Source of the DNA: Hymenobacter cellulosilyticus
GTDB taxonomy: Bacteria > Bacteroidota > Bacteroidia > Cytophagales > Hymenobacteraceae
NCBI RefSeq assembly: GCF_022919215.1
Contig: NZ_CP095046.1
Location: 1,044,501-1,108,500, forward strand
Length of the DNA: 64,000 nt
Reading direction: 5' to 3'
Both the position numbers and the translations under genes were made by a program. Within the stretch, counting starts at the first letter, position 1. Every line of letters begins with the position of its first letter. This document shows positions 5,628 to 36,044 of this stretch, in pieces. Below the pieces are notes generated by a model. That model saw only the letters and a program-made list of their open reading frames with translations, was not told the origin of the DNA and did not search any database.

Positions 5628-5652
5628 AAGTCAGGTTTACCGTTATTTTCGT

Positions 5653-5684
5653 AAAGACGCCCGCAGCAATGCAGGCGTTTTTTG
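5653..5684 (+). terminator. Rho-independent terminator after ybeY
   Basis: ACGCCCGCA and TGCAGGCGT form a short stem with a GCAA-type loop followed by a run of six T residues. Confidence 0.75.
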
Positions 5685-5750
5685 TTTATTCATCAGTTGG
5701 CTGCTTATCCTTGGCCAGCCAGACTTAGGCTTTACTCTCTGCCTTACGCT

Positions 5751-6479
5751 ATGTCCGCTTCTTCGGCTCACAACCTGATTATCCCCGGCGAGGCGCTGGA
5801 CTTTTACCTGAGCCAGGGCTATTACCGGATGCATCAGGACCTGTTTACCTGCCGCTTTCTGCCCATTGAGGGCGGCTTTTATACGGTCCACTGGCTGCGC
5901 ATTGCATTAGGTGAGGTGCAGTACGGCCCCGAGCAGCGCCGGCTGCTGCGCCTGGGGGAACGGTTTACGGTGCGGCGGCGGCCATTTCAGCTAACCGATG
6001 AACTAGAGGAATTGTACGCTGCCTACCGCGGCTCCATCAGCTTCGATGCGCCGCCCACGGTGGAGTCGTTTTTGCTGGCCGGAGCTACGCATAATGTATT
6101 TACGACCGAAGTCTTTGAAATTCGGGACGGGGAGCGGCTGGTGGCGGCCGGTATTTTCGACTGCGGCGCCCGCAGCTTGGCCGGCATCATGAACTTCTAC
6201 CACCCCGAGTACCGCAAGTTCAGTTTGGGCAAATACCTGATGCTGCGCAAAATTGAGCACGCCCGGGAGCTGCACCACCGCTACTATTACCCCGGCTACA
6301 TTGCCCACGGCTTCCCCAAGTTCGACTACAAGCTGTTCCCTTGCCCGGCCGCTACGGAAGTCTTCGATGCCCGCCGCAGCCGGTGGGAGCCTTTCTCCTG
6401 GGAAACCGTGGCCCGCCAATCCGCTGATTTGCTTAGTGATTGGCAGGACGACGAGTTGAGCAGCTTCGACGAGGCCTGA
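5751..6479 (+). CDS. Arginine-tRNA-protein transferase-like protein (ATE C-terminal / GNAT-like fold)
   Basis: The 242-residue protein resembles the C-terminal domain of arginyl/leucyl-tRNA-protein transferases: FRGSISFDAPP-like YRGSISFDAPP in the middle, then AAGIFDCGARSLAGIMNFYHPEYRKFSLGKY with the acyltransferase signature, and YYPGYIAHGFPKFDYK near the end. These enzymes attach an amino acid from aminoacyl-tRNA to protein N-termini, marking them for degradation. The Cys-rich N-terminal domain of bacterial Bpt/ATE is not evident, so catalytic specificity is uncertain. ATG 5751 is chosen because the first 23 codons of the longer frame overlap the terminator and do not look conserved. It lies alone between ybeY and mnmG. 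Confidence 0.65.
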   Translation: MSASSAHNLIIPGEALDFYLSQGYYRMHQDLFTCRFLPIEGGFYTVHWLRIALGEVQYGPEQRRLLRLGERFTVRRRPFQLTDELEELYAAYRGSISFDAPPTVESFLLAGATHNVFTTEVFEIRDGERLVAAGIFDCGARSLAGIMNFYHPEYRKFSLGKYLMLRKIEHARELHHRYYYPGYIAHGFPKFDYKLFPCPAATEVFDARRSRWEPFSWETVARQSADLLSDWQDDELSSFDEA

Positions 6480-6513
6480 GCAAGCTCACCGCGCAGAAAA
6501 GCAGCTGAGTGCG

Positions 6514-6521
6514 TATCTTTG
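6514..6521 (+). promoter_or_regulatory. Bacteroidota -7 promoter element upstream of mnmG
   Basis: TATCTTTG is an exact match to TAnnTTTG. It lies 227 bases before the mnmG ATG, which implies a leader of about 220 bases in which I see no other gene or clear structure. Confidence 0.5.
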
Positions 6522-6748
6522 CGCACGTTTTGAGCGTGTTGCCCCGGCATCCGCAGTTGATTCCCTTGAATAAAGCACCGGCCCGATGGTGGGTGCCTGC
6601 TGTTCGAAAGAAGTGCGAACTTTCCCTTAACCGGTTACTGTTTGCCTCCAACGGCCAGCGCATTGGGGCTAGAGTTAAACCACTGGGTTTAACCCTCCGT
6701 CGTCTGCAATCCGCGCCATCCGTCGAATCCGTCTAAAATCCGCGGTCC

Positions 6749-8616
6749 ATGTTTCAGCAAGAAGAGTACGATGTTATTGTAGTAGGTGCCGGCCACGCTG
6801 GTTGTGAAGCGGCAGCTGCCGCGGCCAACCTGGGCTCCAAGGTCCTGCTGGTCACGATGAACATGAACACCATTGCCCAGATGTCGTGCAATCCGGCCAT
6901 GGGTGGGGTGGCCAAGGGCCAGATCGTGCGGGAAGTGGATGCGCTGGGCGGGCAGTCGGGCATTATCACCGACAAGACGATGATTCAGTTCCGGATGCTG
7001 AACCGCTCGAAAGGCCCCGCCATGTGGAGCCCCGGGCGCAGTCGGACCGGATGCGCTTTGCCGAGGAGTGGCGCAACACGCTGGAGCAAACCCCGAACGT
7101 AGACTTCTGGCAGGAATCGGTGACGGGCATCGTGGTAGAAAACGACACGGTGGTGGGCGTCAAAACTCAGCTCGGCATCGAGTTTCGGGGCAAGTCGGTG
7201 GTGCTGACTAATGGCACCTTCCTCAACGGCCTGATTCACATCGGCGAGAAAAACTTCGGCGGGGGCCGCGCCGCTGAGAAGAAAAGCACCGGCATCACCG
7301 AGCAGCTCCTGGAGCTGGGCTTCGAAACGGGCCGCATGAAAACCGGCACCCCGCCCCGCGTGGACGGTCGCAGCCTGGACTATTCCAAAATGGAAGAGCA
7401 GGCCGGCGACGAGGTGCCCAGCAAGTTCAGCTACCTCGATACGCCCGCTCTGGTCAAGCAGCGCCCCTGCTACATCACCTATACCAACCAGGAGGTGCAC
7501 GACATTCTGCGCGAGGGGTTCGAGAAGTCGCCCATGTTCCAGGGCCGCATCAAGGGCCTGGGGCCGCGCTACTGCCCGAGTGTAGAAGACAAAATCAACC
7601 GCTTTGCCGACAAGGACCGCCACCAGATCTTCGTGGAGCCCGAGGGCAGCAGCACCGTAGAAATGTACATCAACGGCTTCAGCAGTTCGTTGCCGGAAGA
7701 CGTGCAGTACCGGGCCCTGCGCAAAATTGCGGGCTTCGAGAATGCCAAGATGTTCCGCCCCGGCTACGCCATTGAGTACGACTTCTTCCCGCCGACCCAG
7801 CTCAACCTGACCCTGGAAACCAAGCGGGTGAAGAACCTCTACTTCGCCGGCCAGATCAACGGCACGACGGGCTATGAGGAAGCCGCCTGCCAGGGCCTGA
7901 TGGCCGGTATCAATGCCCACAACAAGGTACACGGCCGGGAGCCTTTCATCCTGAAGCGGAGTGAGGCCTACATCGGCGTGCTCATCGACGACCTCGTGAA
8001 CAAGGGTACCGACGAGCCCTACCGCATGTTTACCTCCCGGGCCGAGTACCGCATCTTGCTGCGCCAGGACAACGCCGACCTGCGCCTGACGCCCCTGGGC
8101 CACGCCCTGGGTCTGGCCTCGGATGAGCGGATGGAGCGGGTGCAGCGCAAGCAGCAGGAAACGGCCGAAGTAGTAAAGCTGCTCAAGAATTTCAGCATCG
8201 AGCCTTCGGAAATCAACGGTTTGCTGGAAGAGCTGGGCTCGGCCACCATCCACGAGAAAACCCGCGCCGTGAACCTGCTACGCCGGCCCAACGTGGAGCT
8301 GGAACACTTGACCAGCACCTTGCCCGCCCTCACCTTGGCCCTTGGTCAGTACCAGCCCGACAGCCTGGAACAGGCCATTATTGCTATTAAGTACGAGTCC
8401 TACATCGAGAAGGAAAACCAACAGGCCGCCCGCGTGGCCGAGCTGGAAAACTTCGTGATTCAGGGTCGCCTCGACTATAAGCAGATGCCGGCCCTCTCGC
8501 ACGAGGCCCGGGAGAAGCTGCTCAAGGTGCAGCCCGAAACCCTGGGTCAGGCCTCGCGCATCAGCGGAGTGTCGCCGGCCGACGTTTCGGTGCTGATGGT
8601 GTACCTTGGCCGATAA
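6749..8616 (+). CDS. mnmG: tRNA uridine-5-carboxymethylaminomethyl modification enzyme MnmG (one frameshift near 7031)
   Basis: The N-terminal frame shows the FAD-binding [12 protein letters not shown] near residues 11-22 and [24 protein letters not shown]. It breaks after KGPAMWSP, and the continuing frame resumes [13 protein letters not shown], exactly the expected MnmG sequence. One extra C in the CCCC at 7030-7033 restores a protein of 622 residues, the normal length. Later motifs include [23 protein letters not shown] and the C-terminal [18 protein letters not shown]. With MnmE it adds the carboxymethylaminomethyl group to wobble U34 of several tRNAs, using FAD, NADH and methylene-tetrahydrofolate. 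mnmG lies near the replication origin in many bacteria, which fits the oriC candidate 3 kb downstream. The shift is most likely a sequencing error. Confidence 0.93.
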
Positions 8617-11792: not shown

Positions 11793-12307
11793 CTATCCAC
11801 ATTGGGCGCTTTCAGAATCAGGCGACTACGTGCTTTCCACAATTTTTTCCACAGCTTCACGGAGCATTTTCCACTCGGCAGGGCAGAAGTGGGTTAATCT
11901 GTGGATAATACTGGGGATACCTGGGGATAACCCGTGGAGAAGTTGCGGAAAAGTTTTTTTGCCCGGGCACAGTCCAGCACAGAGGGCGCTTTCCACATTG
12001 CCGACGTGGATAACGGTGGATAACTATCCCCGGAAAATACCCTAATCCACACTGGGCAAAACCTGTGAATTGTGGATTCGTGGATAACGCTGTTGATTGT
12101 GAATAAATCTCATAACCCATTGATATCATAGAATTTACTATCCACACACCCTGTTGATAGACGGTGTATAAACCCAATCTTGTACACAAGTTATCAGCTC
12201 TGTGTATAACTATATTTTCTTATCCACTTATGAACACCCCCAACGAGTGGAGACAAAGAGAAATCTTTTAAAAAATTTAATTCAAAAGTTATTAACCCTG
12301 TGGATAA
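11793..12307. other. oriC: Candidate chromosomal replication origin (oriC): DnaA-box cluster plus AT-rich stretch
   Basis: This is gene-free DNA. Two perfect DnaA boxes TTATCCACA/TGTGGATAA occur at 11900-11908 and 12299-12307. Single-mismatch boxes begin at 11793, 11845, 11922, 12005, 12015, 12043, 12079, 12098, 12138, 12201 and 12220, in both orientations. Poorer ones occur at 11833, 11867 and 11989. A very AT-rich stretch at about 12260-12295 (AAATCTTTTAAAAAATTTAA) borders the right-hand perfect box and would suit an unwinding element. mnmG, recF, dciA and a parS site elsewhere in the window fit an origin-proximal region. The + strand genes on the left point toward this site, which is not the usual co-orientation. 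The rest of the gap to 12.6 kb shows nothing I can name. Confidence 0.8.
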
Positions 12308-25623: not shown

Positions 25624-27524
25624 GTGCCTGAGCCCATTCTGTCCGTCCGCAATCTGACTATCGACTTCCGTTCCCACCGCGGCGACGTGCGGGCCGTACA
25701 TGACGTGTCCTTCGACCTACACCGGGGTGAAACCGTGGCCATCGTGGGCGAATCCGGCTCGGGCAAGTCCGTTACTTCCCTGGCCTTAATGGGCCTGATT
25801 CCGATGCCGCCCGGCCGGATTGCTTCGGGCACGGCGCAGTTTCACTCCGAAGCCCTGGGCGAAGTCGACTTGCTCCAGCTTCCGGATCAGCAGCTGCAAA
25901 AGGTGCGGGGCAACGACATCAGCATGATTTTTCAGGAACCCATGACGTCCCTGAACCCGGTCTATACCTGCGGCAGCCAGGTGGTAGAAGCTTTGCGCCT
26001 GCATACCACGCTCAGCCAAAAGGAAGCCGAGGCCCGCACGGTGGAGCTGTTTCGCATGGCCCAGCTGCCCCGCCCCGAGAAAATCCTGAACGCCTACCCC
26101 CACGAAATCAGCGGGGGCAGAAGCAGCGCGTGATGATAGCCATGGCCATGGCCTGCAACCCCGCCATCCTCATTGCCGACGAGCCTACCACCGCCCTCGA
26201 CGTGACGGTGCAGGCCCGCATGCTGCAGCTCATCGACGAGCTGCGCCGCCAGCACAACACGGCCGTGCTCTTCATCACCCACGACCTGGGCGTGGTAGCC
26301 GAAATTGCCGACCGGCTTCTGGTCATGTACCGCGGCCGGGTAGTGGAGCAGGGCCCCGTGCTCGACATTTTCACCAACCCCCAGCATCCTTACACCAAAG
26401 GCCTGCTGGCTTGCCGTCCCAAACTCTCAGTGGGCCGGCAGTGGCTACCCGTAGTAGCCGATTTTATGACCGAGGACGCGGCCGGCAACCTCGTGGAAAA
26501 ACTCACGCGTTCCACGCCGGAGAGCTCAACTATTGCCGTAACTGCTACCTCTGATAACATTTCTCTTGAAACCACCAAAACGTTCCCCGTGGAACAAAAT
26601 GAGGCGGTTTTAGCCAGCGAAACGAAAGGGGAGGTGCTCAACCAAGCTCTAGCAGTCGAGGCTTCACGTTCAGCTTCAACCACCCATTCCGACCCGCTCT
26701 TACGCGTTGAAAACCTGAACGTCCACTTTCCCATTCGCAAGGGCTTCTTCAACCGCAAGCCCGAGTTCGTGCGGGCCGTGGACGGAGTCAGCTTCGACAT
26801 CTTCCGCGGCGAAACCGTGGGGCTGGTGGGCGAGTCGGGCTGCGGCAAGACCACGCTGGGCCGGGCGCTTTTGCGACTGGTGGAACCAACGGCCGGCCGC
26901 ATCCTGTTCGAAAAGACGGATCTGGCAAGCTTGCCCGCCGGCGAGCTGCGCAAACGGCGCAAGGAATTTCAGATGGTCTTTCAGGACCCCTACGCGGCCC
27001 TCAACCCGATGATGACCGTGGGGGAGGCCATCCTGGAACCGATGCGGGTGCATAGCGTGGGTGGCAGCCGGCAAGAGCAAAAAGCTCGGGTGCTGGAGCT
27101 GCTGCGCACCGTGGGTTTGAAGGAAGAACATTACCTACGTTACCCGCACGAATTCTCGGGTGGCCAGCGCCAACGGATTTGCATTGCCCGGGCCCTGGCC
27201 TTGCAGCCCAAATGCATCGTCTGCGACGAGTCGGTGTCGGCCCTCGACGTGTCGGTGCAGGCCCAGGTGCTGAACTTGCTCAACCAGCTCAAGCGCGACT
27301 TCGGCATCACCTACCTTTTCATCACCCACGACCTGTCGGTGGCCCGCTTCATGTCCGACCGGCTCTTGGTCATGAGTCAGGGCCGGATTGTGGAAAGCGG
27401 CCCGGCCGCCGACGTCTACGCCAACCCCCAACACGACTACACCAAGCAGCTGCTGGCCGCCATTCCCAAAGACGAGCCCAGCGACATCCGCGCCGCCGTA
27501 GCTCGCCGGGCCGTGGAAGCGTAG
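25624..27524 (+). CDS. Dipeptide/oligopeptide-type ABC transporter, fused double ATPase subunit (one frameshift near 26115)
   Basis: Two ATP-binding domains are joined in one chain of about 633 residues. The first has Walker A GESGSGKS near residue 43 and Walker [13 protein letters not shown]; its signature is broken at the frameshift but becomes [11 protein letters not shown] if one G is added to the GGGGG at 26113-26117. The second, starting near residue 360, has [33 protein letters not shown] and [19 protein letters not shown] Ser/Thr/Glu-rich linker of about 70 residues with weak conservation separates them. The fusion corresponds to OppD-OppF or YejF/GsiA. It powers peptide or related uptake; the permease and binding protein are not in the window. 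GTG 25624 is the start. The shift is probably an assembly error. Confidence 0.9.
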
Positions 27525-35336: not shown

Positions 35337-35864
35337 TGTTACACGATACTAATTACAAGTTGCATACGATTGTAAAGCGTCGCTGTGTAATGTTTGCTTG
35401 TAAAGTGTAAATAGGTTCATGTTACAGTTCTTGTTTTGTAACAGTATTACATTGTTTGCGTCTGTATGTTATTACAGACACTTTTTGTTTCATTGAAACA
35501 CTTTTGACATCTTTACACTCTGCCCTCATTACAACCCGCCATCTATGCCGCATCAAGGCGAAATCCTTCAGGAAGCTATTAAAAACAGTGGTATTTCCAT
35601 CACTCGCATCGTGGAGGAGCTTGGCATCACCCGTCCTACTATCTATCGTAAATTCAAAGAGGATAGTTTGGATTACGCATTTGTAAAGCGAGTTGGGGAA
35701 ATCATCGGACATGATTTTTCGGACGATTTTACTGCTTTACAACAAACTGTATTACCGTTTACTGCTACATCTGTAACACAGTCTTCGCCTGTTTCTGTAA
35801 CACCCCGTTCAAATGTGTTACAAACTCCTGATTCCGATCCTGTAAAGCAGCTTATGGCGTTACA
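35337..35864. promoter_or_regulatory. Dense TGTAA/TTACA motif array upstream of and inside the HTH gene
   Basis: The pentamer TGTAA or its complement TTACA starts at 35339, 35353, 35371, 35386, 35399, 35406, 35422, 35437, 35447, 35472, 35513 and 35529 in the 200 bases before the gene, and at 35682, 35737, 35772, 35796, 35818, 35841 and 35860 inside it. Extended forms are TGTAAAG, TGTAACA and TGTTACA. That is 19 hits in about 530 bases where roughly one is expected by chance. GTCTGTA...TACAGAC at 35460-35479 is a perfect inverted repeat, and TGTTTCATTGAAACA at 35486-35500 is a palindrome. Binding sites for the encoded HTH protein are the natural reading, but this is inference. The rest of the 35209-35336 gap shows nothing. 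Confidence 0.7.
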
Positions 35865-35931
35865 AACTAAGTATATAGCGCTCCTAGAAGCCTATAATGA
35901 GTTGCTTATGAAGGTGTACGGCCCTAAATGA
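35545..35931 (+). CDS. Small helix-turn-helix DNA-binding protein
   Basis: The 128-residue protein has an N-terminal helix-turn-helix: residues 5-60 read QGEILQEAIKNSGISITRIV, then EELGITRPTIYRKFKEDSLD, with the usual Ala/Gly-Ile...Thr-x-x-Ile-Tyr-Arg pattern of XRE or Fis-like folds. Residues 65-95 are Ser/Thr/Val-rich and low in structure, and the C-terminus (KQLMALQTKYIALLEAYNELLMKV) is a predicted amphipathic helix or short coiled coil, so it may dimerise. I do not recognise an exact family. The gene is AT-richer than its neighbours, is packed with TGTAA motifs, and its TGA stop touches a palindrome containing a perfect parS. It could autoregulate, or act with chromosome-organising proteins. 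Confidence 0.8.
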   Translation: MPHQGEILQEAIKNSGISITRIVEELGITRPTIYRKFKEDSLDYAFVKRVGEIIGHDFSDDFTALQQTVLPFTATSVTQSSPVSVTPRSNVLQTPDSDPVKQLMALQTKYIALLEAYNELLMKVYGPK

Positions 35932-35937
35932 CAAAAA

Positions 35938-35953
35938 TGTTCCACGTGAAACA
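35938..35953. other. parS: parS site (ParB-binding centromere)
   Basis: TGTTCCACGTGAAACA matches the bacterial consensus TGTTNCACGTGAAACA at all positions. It is the core of a 30-bp palindrome (35931-35960) whose outer arms ACAAAAATGTT and AACATTTTTGT are perfect and may also work as a terminator for the HTH gene. It lies between convergent genes, about 24 kb from the oriC candidate, as expected for origin-proximal parS. parA and parB are not in the window. Confidence 0.88.
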
Positions 35954-36044
35954 TTTTTGTCACTCCAACTGTAGGGCATCTTCTTTATAGCGAGCTGAAC
36001 TTAGGACAGCGAGATACAGCAAAGGGCTTGAGCTTTGGCTCTGC

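Follow-up and report, generated by a model that had tools for sequence, protein, structure and literature searches.

A small helix-turn-helix (HTH) gene of Hymenobacter cellulosilyticus has copies of the pentamer TGTAA crowded both ahead of it and inside it, and it ends on a parS site. Bacterial chromosomal centromeres are usually described as parS plus ParB, and the locus raises the question of whether a further DNA-binding protein, with its own gene and binding sites, belongs to the centromere here. We addressed this question in a stretch of 64,000 nucleotides (hereafter the window; features in Table 1) and in related genomes. The reading that we favor, at a probability of roughly 55%, is that the locus is the chromosome centromere built as one self-encoding cassette, in which the HTH protein, assembled on the TGTAA array, would modulate the ParB complex. 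The cassette would run from a promoter with array sites through the HTH gene, again with array sites, to parS inside a palindrome at the stop codon.

Recounting the motifs gave the same 12 upstream and seven intragenic TGTAA/TTACA as the preliminary description, out of 54 in the window; the remaining 63.4 kb hold 35. In 3000 dinucleotide-preserving shuffles, the expectation was 2.0 for the upstream array (maximum 8, observed 12), 1.2 for the gene (maximum 7, which is also what was observed) and 2.7 for both jointly (maximum 9, observed 19). The earlier figure of about one expected was thus approximately threefold too low, but the excess is still real. The gene is also AT-richer than its neighbors, as had been described, with 42.1% GC versus 54.9%, 53.7% and 46.8% for the GDPD, thioesterase and DUF721 genes of the window, respectively. 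The sites are irregular in both spacing and orientation. No direct-repeat family was found at the locus, and an Rfam search (E up to 1) matched no known RNA. A simple promoter/terminator scan reported a stem within the array, at 35460–35479.

Table 1. Positions of the features discussed, in window coordinates.
Feature	Position	Strand	Remarks
ybeY–mnmG interval, place of parS in outgroup genera	5628..6700		without parS here; extra gene 5751–6479
oriC candidate, 13 DnaA boxes (at most 1 mismatch), AT-rich stretch	11793..12307		23 kb from HTH locus
Degenerate parS-like element CGTTCCCCGTGGAACA	26581..26596	+	linker of ABC-transporter gene; in 72/74 loci
Upstream TGTAA/TTACA array, mixed orientation, best extended motif TGTA[A/T]C	35339..35533		12 sites
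Candidate Bacteroidota-type -7 promoter element	35508..35515	+	loose motif match; TTACA site at 35513 overlaps
128-aa HTH protein	35545..35931	+	found in 101/101 sampled same-genus genomes
Intragenic array part, 7 TGTAA/TTACA	35682..35864		count plus synonymous-codon permutation over 80 loci
Extended palindrome, 34 bp, 17-nt arms, around parS	35929..35962		RNA hairpin fold on both strands
parS TGTTCCACGTGAAACA	35938..35953	+	sole consensus parS found in genome

The array was then compared across named genomes, with 80 of the 89 relatives found there retained: 79 from Hymenobacter, MAGs among them, and one from Solirubrum; these are related species, so the 80 loci do not represent 80 independent events. 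With each protein and its codon set held fixed, 200 synonymous-codon permutations of the 80 genes gave 280 expected TGTAA/TTACA (sd 12, maximum 318) versus 549 observed. These shuffles show that selection acts on TGTAA at the DNA level within the gene. The pentamer was the most over-represented 5-mer upstream and, by the synonymous permutation, also in the gene. For the window gene by itself the excess was modest (7 vs 3.4, P about 0.02). TGTAA sites were position-conserved in 40% of pairwise aligned comparisons vs 13% for other AT-rich 5-mers, a difference to which the sites may contribute by themselves assisting the alignment. Approximately half of the intragenic sites fall at gene nucleotides 200–300, near the part encoding a disordered linker. 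Taken together, the shuffles, the synonymous permutation and the footprint comparison rule out chance or AT-richness as the source of the array.

In all 80 named loci, parS lies 5–8 nt past the stop codon, as a consensus site in 75 and with one change in five. TGTAA/TTACA average 7.5 in the approximately 220 bp upstream (range 2–11) and 6.9 in the gene (range 4–10), with 0.51 per kb in the flanks, and the array runs from about 200 bp before the start codon to about 300 bp after it. In a second set, whose species overlap with those of the first, parS adjoins the gene in 52/52 loci from two genera, and the summed TGTAA counts of the gene and 300 bp upstream range from 7 to 23 among the 52 carriers, with the lowest (2 + 5) at locus L045. 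A family sample of 80 genomes contained exactly one perfect parS in 74 cases, two in one and none in five; G023 and G156, which lack a perfect site, have a one-mismatch parS beside the HTH gene. Within the two carrier genera, this sample has 29 perfect parS sites, all of which adjoin the HTH gene, based on coordinates compared by eye. Hence, in the Hymenobacter/Solirubrum lineage the gene is conserved together with the dense array and parS as a single unit. The neighboring DUF721 and recF genes are likewise kept in 80/80 loci, so that the region would be syntenic anyway, which counts against the favored reading. Conservation of the array in homologues and linkage of the gene to parS in relatives, the lack of which would have refuted the preliminary description, were thus borne out.

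Outside the carrier genera the picture was different: the dense array and the adjacent parS, which occur together in two genera, were absent from the more distant homologues that were read. Among 19 genomes with a homologue outside the carrier genera, none had a perfect parS next to that homologue and two lacked a perfect parS altogether, and no nearby parS was found at the 17 homologue loci of other genera where one was looked for. The distant homologues had 2–6 TGTAA in upstream region plus gene at 15 countable loci, a count that leaves out L058 and L066 at contig ends and covers only the matched part of L064, L065 and L067. The highest was L070, with six upstream sites in a stretch of 31% GC. 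Three homologues from genus g3 had 2–3 sites within 230 bp upstream and 2–3 in the gene, vs 1.3–2.7 per kb around them; perhaps these form a small older operator, and such sites at homologues without parS fit an autoregulatory one. In two g3 homologues (L054 and L056), a perfect and a one-mismatch DnaA box were observed at near-identical positions, about -232 and -105, which suggests DnaA control there.

The window genome (6.09 Mb in three contigs, 95% complete) contains a single site within one mismatch of the parS consensus, TGTTNCACGTGNAACA, and this site is TGTTCCACGTGAAACA at the HTH gene. The palindrome around it begins with the TGA of the HTH gene, in agreement with the earlier observation that the stop codon touches a palindrome with a perfect parS. 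ParB itself is encoded away from parS (one TIGR00180 match, at G000:C1:5283944), and all 13 genomes searched had one such match each. The palindrome is kept to about 15-bp arms across loci. Pairs 9–15 from its center, which lie outside the 16-bp parS, were Watson-Crick in 62–70 of 81 sequences and included paired changes (pair 10, A-T in 54 and T-A in 9; pair 12, A-T in 50 and G-C in 12), and a hairpin fold was predicted in 6/6 stretches tested. The palindrome may also be a transcription terminator of the HTH gene. Inner position 4 from the center of parS was not Watson-Crick paired in 80/81 sequences, unlike the outgroup parS sites, which are mostly perfect palindromes; perhaps the unpaired position limits cruciform formation in the long palindrome.

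A plainer explanation is that a former island controller represses itself through many weak sites, with parS hitch-hiking behind it, kept as a terminator and because a single centromere can hardly be moved. We consider this unlikely as the whole account. The conserved arms, paired changes and hairpin fold of the palindrome favor a hitch-hiking parS, whereas the simple terminator scan of the window did not have the parS hairpin among its calls. As for the promoter, a loose Bacteroidota-type motif was present at -50 to -30 in 77/80 loci (a count made without a shuffle control). The candidate -7 element, named after the Bacteroidota promoter motif, reads CATCTTTA in the window and CATATTTG in many species. 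Because an array site overlaps this likely promoter element, autorepression by the HTH protein is likely, and the few TGTAA around the starts of the g3 homologues point the same way. Plain autoregulation, which the preliminary description had named as the simpler alternative, thus probably also occurs, but by itself it explains the intragenic sites and the fixed parS poorly: sites under selection are spread over most of the gene body, though repression should need just a few, and the gene is present in every sampled genome of the genus.

The paralogues of the HTH protein bear on the same explanation. The 13 paralogues in the carrier genera have just 0–3 TGTAA upstream and 0–1 in the gene, which argues against autoregulation as the reason for a dense array. 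One of them, L218, is flanked by an HNH gene and a ResIII gene according to a profile scan, a neighborhood that counts in favor of an island controller. L216, L219, L220 and L222 resemble it in context, as judged by eye. Paralogues located beside an HNH endonuclease gene and a large ResIII (type III restriction-like) gene are possible controllers of a restriction-type defense island, and since L218 lies between HNH and ResIII and the others look alike, the context suggests a mobile or restriction-island source of the HTH protein. The search for a close plasmid or phage relative of the locus gave three weak partial plasmid matches and no phage match. In family f21 of the same order, with genomes of 0.9–1.9 Mb, one to four HTH homologues each were observed in the ten listed genomes; f21 members without a match may fall outside these ten.

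The AlphaFold model of the HTH protein (mean pLDDT 76.8, pTM 0.45) comprises an HTH domain at approximately residues 1–64, a disordered linker at 65–93 and a C-terminal helix at 99–125. XRE-type folds were the best fold matches of the HTH domain, none of them significant in Foldseek (E up to 0.001), and a sequence search against solved structures returned weak matches only (E at least 0.1). A Pfam scan at E up to 1 gave 13 matches, with no KfrA family among them, and no ParB model was matched in Pfam and NCBIfam scans at the same threshold.

The locus had been assumed to be origin-proximal, and this holds: besides the 13-box oriC candidate at 23 kb, the GC skew of the genome (20 sample points, noisy) switches sign, negative to positive, in the interval 0.9–1.2 Mb, and the locus is at 1.08 Mb. 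DnaA boxes were scored against the consensus motif. We read 40 kb on each side of the gene in nine other genomes (eight in one contig, G104 in three; G158 only 20 kb on the parS side), and in 9/9 the densest DnaA-box cluster lay on the array side at a distance of 20.7–28.3 kb from the gene, with 4–14 boxes in 600 bp vs 1–3 on the parS side. The weakest cluster, four boxes with none exact, was that of G104, the sole genome from the second carrier genus, g5. The sole consensus parS near oriC supports the earlier characterization of the locus as centromere-like. The similar distance and shared side of the DnaA-box cluster could also be taken to mean that the protein–array complex regulates initiation at the oriC some 23 kb off, for example as a timer or titration site. 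We regard such replication control as improbable, given that no conserved DnaA box was found at the HTH–parS locus and that the strict partner of the array is parS. The array as oriC itself was ruled out, with the DnaA boxes 23 kb away and none conserved at the locus.

In one genome each of the outgroup genera g2, g3, g4 and g6, parS is located between ybeY and mnmG, with one mismatch in g3. From ybeY to recF, the genes of g2, g6 and the window follow largely the same order. The ybeY–mnmG interval of the window is without parS and contains an additional gene that matches ATE_C and Acetyltransf_6 in Pfam. Beside the thioesterase gene of g2 and g6, neither an HTH match nor an array was found, g6 having about 12 kb of other DNA there. 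In the remaining two of the four outgroup genomes, the 20 kb around the thioesterase gene gave no HTH match either. Since parS lies at ybeY–mnmG in the outgroups and is missing from this interval in the window, it most likely shifted by about 30 kb in Hymenobacter, to the HTH gene on the other side of oriC. A single move in a common ancestor of the two carrier genera, g1 and g5, may account for this distribution. Within the 60 kb read in g2 and g6, DnaA boxes reached at most four and three per 600 bp, respectively, too few to place oriC.

A second parS-like element was found on the oriC side. This 16-bp element, mostly CGTTCCCCGTGGAACA, corresponds to parS with CACGTG changed to CCCGTG and occurs towards oriC at a median of 8.8 kb from parS, about 7.6–9.8 kb upstream of the HTH gene, in 72 of the 74 loci that were long enough; the flanks fetched for the remaining two may have ended before reaching it. 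Over 71–76 loci each, three 4-kb control intervals had no site under three mismatches. The element sits in a variable linker of the ABC-transporter gene, and among 100 conserved columns from 70 loci, four of the seven near-invariant codon columns fall in its patch. L128 and L132 have a reverse form of the element with an altered peptide, and the protein alignment placed both rows differently. A half-parS follows within 40 bp in 62/73 loci, though not in the window, compared with 26/3730 random stretches. Each of 10/10 carrier genomes has one exact copy of the element, while four outgroup genomes have none and show three one-mismatch matches, one of which (G110, 4332821) falls in the interval that corresponds to the position of the HTH gene. 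The degenerate element may be a second ParB contact; according to one report, ParBs of some species bind half-parS (PMC7022226).

The latter property is also relevant to who reads the array. If GTGTAACA, which is similar to the parS half GTGNAACA, were recognized as a half-parS, ParB rather than the HTH protein could be the reader, in keeping with the half-site binding described in PMC7022226. The base counts in the 80 upstream regions (GTGTAAC 99, GTGAAAC 2, GTGCAAC 2, GTGGAAC 0) show that the array avoids the half-parS forms of the literature. They rule out the array as ParB half-sites, and a different protein as the reader of the array is accordingly a poor prospect in our estimation.

Under the favored centromere reading, the HTH domain would bind TGTA(A/T)C and the C-terminal helix would drive multimerization, so that the protein may coat about 500 bp next to parS, on its oriC side, and in doing so repress the promoter of its own gene. 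Most likely, the complex would act from one side as a barrier or bridging platform, restricting how far ParB slides towards oriC and helping to hold or condense the origin region for segregation. In an in vitro study, bound TetR attenuates ParB spreading one-sidedly (PMC7053999), and simulations give short-lived roadblocks a mild effect on ParB spreading (PMC10387095); in view of this mild effect, an array of sites would help as a barrier. The irregular spacing and orientation of the sites, the two upstream sites of L045 and the six of the distant L070 count against the centromere reading. A more far-reaching version, which we put forward tentatively and at somewhat less than even odds, is a composite, self-encoding Hymenobacter centromere: an island-type HTH gene would have been recruited, parS moved to its stop codon and the old parS lost, with the protein–array complex as an obligate second half that controls ParB loading or sliding and the degenerate parS approximately 9 kb towards oriC as a second anchor.

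Noc and SlmA are DNA-binding proteins that act from specific sites, and the preliminary description had likened the HTH protein to them. An origin-proximal DNA-binding protein beside parS is what a division regulator linking segregation and division through chromosome-wide sites might look like, but the spread sites found no support and we hold this reading to be very improbable. No second array was seen in the window, in a 400-kb sample or, genome-wide, in a scan for same-strand TGTAA triples, although single dispersed sites may still exist. Four of the six triples of the genome are at the locus, in a pattern that is unspecific (17 per strand in the reversed control), that misses the locus in 3/10 carriers (G012, G020 and G104) and that the reversed control often matched more. 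The sole dense 200-bp cluster of the 400-kb sample (six sites, L102) was rejected as a different, unrelated tandem repeat. Unlike Noc, the Hymenobacter protein had no ParB-family match at E up to 1, and unlike Noc and SlmA, it has XRE-type folds as its best matches and no second array in the material examined.

Among known systems, iteron plasmid centromeres (ParR/parC, TubR/tubC) have an array of short sites through which the centromere-binding protein represses the promoter of its own gene. Autorepression from a site array would be the point of likeness to Hymenobacter, which differs in its irregular spacing, lack of regular direct repeats, unrelated neighborhood and additional ParB-type parS. 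Chromosomal ParABS centromeres resemble the locus in having a consensus parS near oriC and one ParB (TIGR00180) per genome; unlike the ParABS norm, Hymenobacter has a single consensus parS that is locked to a non-ParB DNA-binding gene and array and lies elsewhere than in sister genera. KfrA of plasmid RA3 comes closest as a working analogue: this HTH/helical protein binds a repeated operator, represses its own expression and makes contact with ParB/KorB (PMC7783346). As in Hymenobacter, an HTH and a helical tail would be combined with repeated sites over the protein's own promoter, and KfrA has an accessory role in ParABS-type partition through its contact with ParB (KorB). The Hymenobacter protein, in contrast, is chromosomal, its helix is short (27 residues), its sites fill the coding region and parS is fixed behind its stop codon; homology to KfrA was not detected by the Pfam scan, the comparison being made through profiles rather than directly between the sequences. 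A search by titles and abstract openings found no study of parS/ParB in Bacteroidota, and we recognized no earlier description of the gene–array–parS arrangement in the literature searched, whose coverage largely leaves out subscription journals. Throughout a genus, then, the one consensus parS stays locked to a further DNA-binding protein with its putative sites after a traceable move, which offers a natural experiment on centromere movement, the limits on ParB spreading and segregation in Bacteroidota.

Three other genes of the window seemed to be frame-broken, namely mnmG (about 7015–7033), a pyruvate-dehydrogenase E1-like gene (38.7–39.1 kb) and an ABC-transporter gene (26.1 kb). These breaks are probably assembly indels of the window genome.
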